Positions 7,032 through 8,991 of a stretch of 64,000 bases of DNA are shown here, piece after piece. Source of the DNA: Polyangia bacterium (GTDB taxonomy: Bacteria > Myxococcota_A > Polyangia > Fen-1088); assembly GCA_036268875.1 (NCBI GenBank), contig DATATI010000007.1, positions 62,001 to 126,000 on the forward strand, read 5' to 3'. Every line of letters starts with the position of its first letter. Position 1 is the stretch's first letter. Under the pieces are notes generated by a model that had not been told where the DNA came from, did no database searches, and was given only the letters and a program-made list of their open reading frames with translations. Position numbers and translations under genes: made by a program.

Positions 7032-7397
7032 CTACAAAGACTTTGGGCGCAGCGGCCAGCCAGGGCCCGCCGGTTTTGCCCGCGACGCTGGAACGATCAC
7101 GCGGCGCGGTCGATCGCCCGTCAACGCGCTGGCCAGCAACAAGGCCGCGCACAGAGCATTGTTCACCAGCGTCAGATCGGTGAACGGCAGCGTCAACAGC
7201 GCGAAGCAAAACAACCACAGCGCGATCATGCCGTTCAGATAGCGCATCCACCCGAAGAAATAACTGGCCACTGCCAGGATGGTCACCAGCATTCCGCACA
7301 CAGCCGCGTTGGTCTGTTGCGCCGGCAAATGCGGCCAGGCAAACACCGACACCATCAGCCACAGTCCAACGAAGGTACTCACCACGCGCATGAACAT
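7032..7397 (-). CDS. SPW-repeat-like small membrane protein
   Basis: About 121 residues with four hydrophobic helices arranged as two related halves: VGLWLMVSVFAWP...NAAVCGMLVTILAVASYF and MIALWLFCFALLTLP...NNALCAALLLASAL. This two-fold pattern (xGLWL..S.F......N....G) is that of SPW-repeat integral membrane proteins of unknown function. The ATG at 7397 is preceded by an excellent GAGAAGGAGGGCCTC ribosome site. An upstream in-frame extension to 7697 has no support. It is divergent from the C39 peptidase operon, sharing a promoter interval of about 160 bases. Confidence 0.75.
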   Translation of the reverse strand: MFMRVVSTFVGLWLMVSVFAWPHLPAQQTNAAVCGMLVTILAVASYFFGWMRYLNGMIALWLFCFALLTLPFTDLTLVNNALCAALLLASALTGDRPRRVIVPASRAKPAGPGWPLRPKSL

Positions 7398-7560
7398 GAG
7401 GCCCTCCTTCTCATTCTTCACTTCTTCGATAGCGCGCCTCGCACTTTGAAATGTGGCCATTGCCGGACCGGCGTCAAGCAAGGGAACGCCCCTTGCGCCG
7501 TCGATCATCGGCCACAGGTTTTCTGATGGACTCTGCGTGCCTGCGGCCAAGGGAGAAAAT

Positions 7561-7920
7561 ATGATTGAGCTGACAGTCGACCATGCCTGCTTGAAGCGAT
7601 GTCCTATATTGGCGCGCCGCCGATCGCGCAGTCTTTTACCGATCGCGATGTCGATCGCTCTGACATTGCTGCTGGGAACCGCGGACGCTTGGGCCAAGGG
7701 CAGCGCACTGCAAGCTGGCGCGCCGCCGGTGCAGGCGACCTCCGCCGAGTCCGTCGCCCGGCGATCAGAAGCCAGGGGTTCAGCGACGGACGGCTCTTAT
7801 GCCCAACGCGAGGCAGCGGCCGCCGGCCTGGAGAACTTCAAAGGCGGCGACGTGGTGATCATCAGCAGCACCACCGTGATCATCGTGCTGCTGATCATTC
7901 TCATTCTGGTCATTATTTGA
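7561..7920 (+). CDS. Small exported protein with a Gly-Gly site and a hydrophobic C-terminal tail (possible C39 substrate)
   Basis: A 119-residue protein starting at the ATG after GGGAGAAAAT. Residues about 24-46 form a signal peptide (LLPIAMSIALTLLLGTADAWA). The middle is polar and Ala-rich. The end is ENFKGGDVVIISSTTVII followed by an unbroken run of Ile/Leu/Val to the last residue (119), with the Gly-Gly at 95-96. It overlaps or abuts the next gene, which encodes a C39-like peptidase. C39 enzymes are known to cut after double glycines. The layout recalls the PA2779/PA2778 pair of Pseudomonas (small protein with hydrophobic tail beside a C39-like peptidase), although the sequences differ. 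That it is a processed substrate is inference. Confidence 0.7.
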   Translation: MIELTVDHACLKRCPILARRRSRSLLPIAMSIALTLLLGTADAWAKGSALQAGAPPVQATSAESVARRSEARGSATDGSYAQREAAAAGLENFKGGDVVIISSTTVIIVLLIILILVII

Positions 7921-7976
7921 GCGCGGCGCCGATAGACTTTCGCCGCGCCCCCAAATTCACTGCTCCACTTTCGGCG

Positions 7977-8528
7977 ATGGTCGTCGGGTCGCTGGTGATG
8001 GTGGCGGCCGCCGGTTGCTACCAGGGCACCGCGCGCTCGGTTTCGCTGGTGGCGATCGCGCACCAACCGGGCTGGCAACTGGTCGATCACGTCAGCATGG
8101 TTCAGCAGGACGGGATGCACGATTGCGGACCGGCGGCGCTGGCCATGGTGCTCGAACGGTGGGGTTATCCCAACGCCGCGCCGGCGATCCGGCAAGCGGT
8201 GGGCCCGGCCAAGCCCGACGGCGTGGCCGCCGGCAAGCTGCGCGACTTTGCCCGCGGCAAGGGACTGCAGGCCTTCTTGATAAGCGGCGTCGACGGCGAT
8301 CTCGAACGAGAGATCGCCAGCGATCGGCCGGTCCTGGTCGGTCTGGTCCAGCGTTACAGCGGCAACCGCGCCTACGCGCACTATGAAGTCGTGGTCGGGT
8401 TCAACCGGCAACGCCGCCGGGTGCTGCTGCTGGATCCAGGGCGCGGCCCGCGCGAAGATGATCTCGGCGCCTTCGAACGCGAATGGATGGGCGCCGCCCG
8501 ACTGGCTTTGGTTGTCGCGCCGGCCTGA
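7977..8528 (+). CDS. C39-like cysteine peptidase, lipoprotein
   Basis: A 183-residue protein. The start is read at ATG 7977, giving a short lipoprotein signal VGSLVMVAAAGC (C14). A TTG at 7917 overlapping the previous stop is an alternative. The peptidase core has Q44 (oxyanion), catalytic C50 in HDCGPAALAMVLERWG, H135 in AYAHYEVVVGF and D153 in LLLDPGRG, which is the full C39 set. There is no ABC transporter domain, unlike bacteriocin exporters, so it acts as a separate enzyme anchored at the periplasmic face or outer membrane. The neighbour upstream is a small Gly-Gly protein. The next gene starts one base after the stop, so the three are one operon. Confidence 0.85.
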   Translation: MVVGSLVMVAAAGCYQGTARSVSLVAIAHQPGWQLVDHVSMVQQDGMHDCGPAALAMVLERWGYPNAAPAIRQAVGPAKPDGVAAGKLRDFARGKGLQAFLISGVDGDLEREIASDRPVLVGLVQRYSGNRAYAHYEVVVGFNRQRRRVLLLDPGRGPREDDLGAFEREWMGAARLALVVAPA

Positions 8529-8529
8529 C

Positions 8530-8991
8530 GTGCGACGCGCGCGGGTACCGATCGTCTGGTCACTGCTGCTGCTGGCCTGTCATCTCGCGGCCTGCAGCAC
8601 GACGTACCAGCCGCGTCCCACCGAGCGCGTGGGGTTGGTCATCCACCATGGCGGTGCCGCTTACACCCACGCCGGCCAGGAGAGCGCCATCGGCCCATTT
8701 GGCGGTGACCTGGAAGGATTGGTCGCCGGCCAGCCCGCCGCCGTCGCCAGGGCCCGCCGCTCGCGCCATCAATTGCAAGCAGGCATCCCCGCGTACCTGG
8801 GTGGATTTGGCGCGGCGGTGGTCGGGCTGGTCCTGTCGGGTCCGGCGGGGTGGATCGTGCTGGGCGTGGGCGCCGCCACCGCGGGCGTTGGACTTGGTTT
8901 GATGGGGGCCGGATTCACCAACGCCGTCGACGCCATAAACACTTATAACGACAGCGTGCCTCCGCTTCCCGGGCCGGCACGCCCGCGTTAA
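8530..8991 (+). CDS. Lipoprotein with glycine-rich membrane-type segment, C39 operon
   Basis: A 153-residue protein of unknown function. The start is a GTG one base after the peptidase stop, which gives a clear lipoprotein signal: Arg-rich n-region, LLLLACHLAAC with C22. Residues about 88-135 are a long hydrophobic Gly/Ala stretch (LGGFGAAVVGLVLSGPAGWIVLGVGAATAGVGLGLMGAG) resembling a glycine-zipper hairpin. The tight spacing suggests it works with the C39 peptidase, for example as a membrane partner. No family was recognised. Confidence 0.7.
   Translation: MRRARVPIVWSLLLLACHLAACSTTYQPRPTERVGLVIHHGGAAYTHAGQESAIGPFGGDLEGLVAGQPAAVARARRSRHQLQAGIPAYLGGFGAAVVGLVLSGPAGWIVLGVGAATAGVGLGLMGAGFTNAVDAINTYNDSVPPLPGPARPR

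Follow-up and report, generated by a model that had tools for sequence, protein, structure and literature searches.

We analysed a 64-kb window, that is, the whole stretch of 64,000 nucleotides, in which three closely spaced genes on the forward strand encode a small protein with a double glycine and a hydrophobic C-terminus (gene 1, the tail protein), a C39-type lipoprotein peptidase (gene 2) and a further lipoprotein (gene 3). Their features are:

7561..7920, +: tail protein gene (gene 1), 119 aa; relatives in 27 of 27 peptidase-carrying genomes (phylum survey plus further search)
7561..7695, +: signal peptide of gene 1, RRRSRSLLPIAMSIALTLLLGTADAWA, judged by eye; helix at residues 25–47 in the model
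7798..7848, +: leader-like helix with the double-glycine site, YAQREAAAAGLENFKGG, residues 80–96, assigned from conservation in 35 tails and the modelled helix
7849..7917, +: 23-residue hydrophobic C-terminal segment past the GG (21–26 residues in 35 of 35 tails; modelled helix)
7917..8528, +: C39 lipoprotein peptidase gene (gene 2), 203 aa; TTG start at 7917, alternative ATG at 7977; Pfam PF03412
8016..8018, +: lipobox cysteine Cys34, followed by a conserved YxGxAR motif, from alignments
8124..8126, +: predicted catalytic Cys70 (with Gln64, oxyanion hole), invariant in alignments and aligned to PCAT1
8379..8381, +: predicted catalytic His155, invariant in alignments
8433..8435, +: predicted catalytic Asp173, present in 28 of 28 family members and replaced in four of four PA2778 proteins
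8530..8991, +: gene 3, encoding a lipoprotein with paired Gly-rich hydrophobic segments; GTG start; judged to lie outside the system

The original prediction treated these as three tightly coupled genes, and the spacing at this locus agrees with it: genes 1 and 2 share 4 nt (TTGA), the TTG at 7917 sitting within ATTTGA, and gene 3 begins 1 nt past the end of gene 2. Spacing between tail and peptidase genes ranges from −4 to +17 nt in relatives. Gene 3, however, is not part of the system. It encodes, as predicted, a lipoprotein in which two hydrophobic segments are rich in Gly, and has no significant match in Pfam or NCBIfam. Homologues occur in 44 of 284 Myxococcota genomes; the gene adjoins the pair only in the source genome, and at nine fetched loci outside that genome neither a C39 gene nor a tail gene was found near its homologues. 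Because of this, and because the pair has no recurrent third neighbour, we rejected gene 3 as a component. A gene for a small membrane protein (7032–7402, −) lies on the other strand, shortly ahead of the tail gene.

By its predicted fold and its catalytic residues, gene 2 encodes a full C39 double-glycine protease. It matches Pfam Peptidase_C39 (PF03412) at 46.2 bits against a cut-off of 22 (E = 5.1e-12), and its 203 residues hold no other domain and no fusion to an ABC transporter. A profile of eight relatives matches the C39 domains of PCAT1, ComA and LahT, for which structures have been solved, with Cys, His and Asp aligned. The model of the mature protein has a mean pLDDT of 95, and a Foldseek search with it returned PCAT1 first (1.1e-8), then ComA, then LahT with a bound leader. 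C39 family enzymes cut after GG, GA or GS. The lipobox and the PF03412 match above the cut-off bear out the lipid-anchored C39-type peptidase that had been predicted, and the C50, H135 and D153 named for it are the same residues as C70, H155 and D173, numbered from the ATG at 7977. An inactive enzyme family had been considered at that stage; counterparts of Gln64, Cys70, His155 and Asp173 are kept in all 28 aligned members. The family is also sharply delimited, with profile scores of at least 195 bits for full-length members, 94 and 64 for two members with a shortened C39 frame, and below 60 for every other C39 protein. Phylogenetically it forms one group (79/71); a larger cluster of this group, PA2778 and the majority of the other stand-alone C39 proteins lies apart from the ABC-type domains (95/96).

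Gene 1 starts at an ATG preceded by GGGAG, and its product runs from a signal peptide through an Ala/Pro-rich linker and a leader-like helix to FKGG and the hydrophobic C-terminus, ending in ENFKGGDVVIISSTTVIIVLLIILILVII; the stretch across the predicted GG cut reads SYAQREAAAAGLENFKGGDVVIISS. Both the signal peptide and the tail of the exported FKGG protein with an all-hydrophobic end, as first described, are thus seen in the gene. In the AlphaFold model a helix at residues 78–92 is followed by a break at 93–96 (FKGG) and a single helix at 97–118, the latter with pLDDT of about 88–96; apart from these two C-terminal helices the model is low in confidence. Across all frames of the window, gene 1 is the sole ORF with a 16-residue end of mean hydropathy above 2.5, and with no second such ORF there, its hydrophobic C-terminus is not that of a chance ORF. 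The 478 kb of loci that we fetched hold 27 ORFs with such an end; 25 are relatives of gene 1, and an FxGG tail was present at none of 36 control C39 loci. Weak family matches of the tail protein to a TmoA carrier (0.15) and RIFIN (0.18) in Pfam and NCBIfam exceed any useful threshold and were disregarded, as were the weak matches of gene 3.

Tail and peptidase profiles mark the identical eight of 379 Myxococcota genomes, with neither gene occurring alone, a perfect co-occurrence for the pairing that the original prediction had put up for checking in myxobacterial genomes. No further tail match appeared in this survey at E ≤ 0.01, and peptidase scores dropped from 242 to 59 bits. Beyond the source genome the search yielded seven peptidase homologues (L003–L009), and directly upstream of every one of them (7/7) lies a gene for a protein with GG and a hydrophobic tail. 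An initial contig scan with a single protein as query gave no match; a profile scan of 84,980 species, the pattern of which restricts what could be detected outside Myxococcota, succeeded and returned 26 peptidase loci, seven of them L003–L009, with a tail gene in front in 25. At the exception, L036, a methyltransferase gene stands upstream of the peptidase instead; this genome (G394) has a split pair, with its tail gene on another contig (L153), so that both halves are kept. All 19 further genomes chosen for their peptidase also carry a tail gene. All family members detected come from Myxococcota or from MAGs under older or vaguer names; those of the MAGs that the genome search also returned are assigned to the window's phylum.

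Counted by gene, 32 of 35 tail genes lie directly ahead of a peptidase gene, and the remaining three stand apart from any peptidase gene but in genomes that have one: the source genome (L081), G393 (L155) and G394. L081 and L155 are second tail genes in genomes with a linked one, and no genome was found to have more than two tail proteins. Second pairs occur in several genomes (L156, L157, L159, L160 and, with its C39 frame short, L158); one more pair (L163) is borne by a genome of the same family. In L158 (genome G379) the C39 frame spans about 80 aa and may reflect a broken copy or an error of assembly; the frame of L160 is also shortened. No third neighbour of the pair recurs except through synteny within one group of nine related loci, and because nothing else recurs beyond that group, the pair does not include an ABC transporter. 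It is nearly certain that the tail and peptidase genes act together.

To characterise the tails we read 35 of them, all from Myxococcota (32 linked to a peptidase gene and three unlinked), counting positions back from the presumed cut past the GG. Glycine at −1 and −2 and an aromatic residue at −4 ([F/Y]xGG) are present in all 35. L, I, V, M or A occupies −7 in 31 and −16 in 30, position −17 is hydrophobic in 32 and −13 is E in 31, while −3, −5, −8, −9 and −14 are mainly polar. Past the GG, every tail consists of 21–26 hydrophobic residues, so that GG and hydrophobic tail, whose conservation had been made a check on the prediction, are kept in all relatives (35/35). A basic C-terminal cluster is absent from the 35 tails; eight have a single C-terminal Arg and the others no Arg. 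The linker N-terminal of the leader helix is variable and of low complexity, with no recognisable conservation among the tails. C39 peptidases recognise a helical leader through hydrophobic residues at −4, −7 and −12 (PMC10885120), a rule with which the tails appear to agree in part, at the GG, −4 and −7, and at −12 in half of them.

The diverged second pair L160 (genome G397) keeps Y..RE and FEGG, and a charged RRGRGVEATT precedes its hydrophobic segment. Because this tail retains the pattern ahead of the GG and gains the insert past it, the portion ahead of the GG seems to be the more constant one. Divergence of tail and peptidase is weakly correlated, at 0.44 for the leader helix, 0.35 for the part past the GG and 0.22 for the linker, values in which related rows were counted as independent and which we therefore set aside as evidence.

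We propose that the peptidase cuts its tail partner after the GG, with a probability of roughly 0.6. The small tail protein would be exported by Sec and lose its signal peptide; its C-terminal hydrophobic helix would hold it in the inner membrane, with the leader-like helix and GG placed just outside. There the lipid-anchored C39 peptidase would read the leader helix, through the aromatic residue at −4 and the hydrophobic residues at −7 and −16/−17, and would cut past the GG in the periplasm, yielding a leader-bearing N-terminal piece and a hydrophobic peptide some 23 residues long. We infer that the tail protein is the peptidase's substrate, its export and topology being those predicted from sequence and model. 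The original proposal, a C39 lipoprotein that acts outside the cytoplasm on a GG protein without an ABC transporter, therefore stands as far as the GG and tail, the active site and the co-occurrence are concerned; the cut itself is probable, and its use in freeing the tail, in removing it or in sorting the protein is conjectural. Speaking against a cut at the GG are the hydrophobic residue at −12 in just 18 of 35 tails, the charged insert of L160 and the low confidence of the model beyond the two helices.

As to the product, we lean slightly towards a freed membrane peptide, itself less likely than not, over the nearly as likely case that the cut serves to remove the anchor or to release the N-terminal piece, because the linker is variable and of low complexity and the segment past the GG is constant in length and pattern. 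At slightly less than even odds, the pair may represent a double-glycine pathway of Gram-negative envelopes that needs no transporter and in which a Sec-exported, anchored precursor is cut by a C39 lipoprotein at a GG between leader and membrane helices, maturing a 23-residue membrane peptide or releasing an N-terminal peptide, and of which PA2778/PA2779 would be a second branch, separately evolved or very diverged.

To our knowledge, C39 peptidases are known almost entirely as the leading part of ABC transporters that export peptides; FapD, described below, is the single studied periplasmic example that we came across, and its target is unsettled. Genes 1 and 2 offer an exported C39 enzyme with an obvious candidate substrate, and because that candidate is so tightly coupled, the target of exported C39 peptidases becomes directly testable with two small genes. 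A confirmed cut would assign a role to a kind of protein that lacks any family model, and it suggests a possible function for the functionally unstudied PA2778/PA2779 pair. Because genomes that bear the peptidase always hold an exported protein that looks shaped for its cut, with leader helix, Gly-Gly and hydrophobic tail, our findings suggest an undescribed route by which small membrane proteins would be processed outside the cytoplasm. A literature search for the gene 1/gene 2 pair found no paper.

Co-occurrence of adjacent genes would arise equally with a partner that is not a substrate. The tail protein could be a membrane partner of the peptidase (an anchor, a regulator or a propeptide-like inhibitor) whose helix docks in the peptidase groove, with the GG a mere hinge and the true substrate elsewhere. 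A hinge would account for the invariant GG and for the helix-break-helix model, and PMC5557850, citing other work, describes a catalytically inactive C39-like domain in some ABC exporters, with a chaperone role implied. We consider such a partner unlikely: the catalytic residues are intact in 28 of 28 family members, the unlinked second tails L081 and L155 suit substrates better than a subunit in fixed 1:1 ratio, and a mere hinge needs no hydrophobic −4 and −7 with polar −3 and −5.

We regard it as distinctly improbable that genes 1 and 2 are no more than a divergent PA2778/PA2779 pair, overlooked by NCBI models and sharing that pair's function. PA2778 (NF033920) and PA2779 (NF033919; PF20332, DUF6627), examined at four pairs (L010, L011, L181 and L182), do resemble them: the gene for an exported C39-type lipoprotein directly follows that for a Sec-exported protein, the C39 domains of the two families are homologous (hhalign 99%, E = 2e-19) and cluster in the tree away from ABC-type C39, and PA2779 ends in PAG or PAGG and a hydrophobic C-terminal helix, as the tail protein ends in GG and a helix. 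Gene 2, however, reaches only 53.9 bits against NF033920, whose cut-off is 150, over positions 8–146 of 255. PA2778 has a C-terminal TPR region and no triad Asp, whereas the gene 2 peptidase is free of TPRs with an intact triad. Homology between the tail protein and PA2779 was not detectable; the tail protein does not match NF033919 or DUF6627, NF033919 is not present in the source genome, and a profile comparison gave 5%, on which grounds membership of the tail protein in PA2779 was rejected. The comparable layout cited in the original prediction is thus an apt analogy and not an identity, and from these comparisons PA2778/PA2779 appears to be a related yet distinct pair of similar plan.

Where the catalytic Asp of C39 stands, the PA2778 proteins have HSGR, HTGR, RSGR or RSGH, and the PA2779 proteins carry an invariant PAG ahead of the membrane helix. 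By eye and for these few sequences, a cut past the PAG would make −4 an L, M or A and −7 an L or I in each of the four, a register that would fit the hydrophobic −4/−7 of the C39 leader rule. A PA2778 family search over the genomes was dominated by TPR matches, and a literature search on the function of PA2778/PA2779 found no paper, the names coming from NCBI.

We know of no C39 enzyme that acts as a transpeptidase, which counts against C-terminal sorting, in which the GG cut would strip the anchor and pass the N-terminal protein to lipid, peptidoglycan or the surface as sortases, rhombosortases and myxosortases do. Sorting is the least probable of these alternatives: its features of exported proteins with a C-terminal motif and hydrophobic segment, some species with more than a single tail protein in the genome, and a GlyGly-CTERM gene that adjoins rhombosortase where a genome has just one (PMC3237569) are set against tails that lack a basic cluster at the C-terminus (one Arg in 8 of 35), short, low-complexity N-terminal parts without a recognisable cargo domain, and no more than two tail proteins found per genome.

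In the GlyGly-CTERM/rhombosortase and MYXO-CTERM/myxosortase systems, a C-terminal motif and hydrophobic helix on Sec-exported proteins are served by a dedicated protease (PMC3237569, PMC11980579), and the former is a precedent for a protease gene adjoining its sole substrate gene (PMC3237569). Rhombosortase and myxosortase are intramembrane enzymes, whereas gene 2 encodes a lipid-anchored cysteine peptidase; the tail protein, unlike their substrates, has no basic tail, has a helix N-terminal to the GG within its motif, and comes as one or two candidate substrates per genome. The tail was rejected as a GlyGly-CTERM (Gly/Ser motif, helix, basic cluster), as it has no NCBIfam CTERM match and no basic cluster, and as a MYXO-CTERM (invariant Cys, helix, Arg-rich end), as the aligned tails have neither the motif Cys nor the Arg-rich end.

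Two further systems resemble the pair in part. FapD of the Pseudomonas Fap amyloid system is a Sec-exported periplasmic C39 peptidase, active without an ABC domain, within a six-gene amyloid operon; its substrate is unsettled, and no dedicated GG-tail partner has been described (PMC5557850). Like gene 2 it is an exported C39 enzyme without an ABC transporter, and it differs by that description, since amyloid genes do not recur beside the gene 1/gene 2 pair. The C39 domains of PCAT1, ComA and LahT and their double-glycine leaders share with our pair the fold, the catalytic residues and the pattern of −4/−7 plus GG. Gene 2 is unlike them in lacking a transporter domain and in being exported and lipid-anchored, and the tail protein is unlike double-glycine leader peptides in that a signal peptide lies ahead of the leader, the 'core' is a membrane helix and −12 is only half conserved. 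The second tail protein of the source genome (L081; G000:C36:60432-60719, −), with no adjoining C39 gene, is flanked by genes for an NtrC-type response regulator and an amino-acid-type substrate-binding protein, and its leader helix is 56% identical to that of the window over 18 residues.
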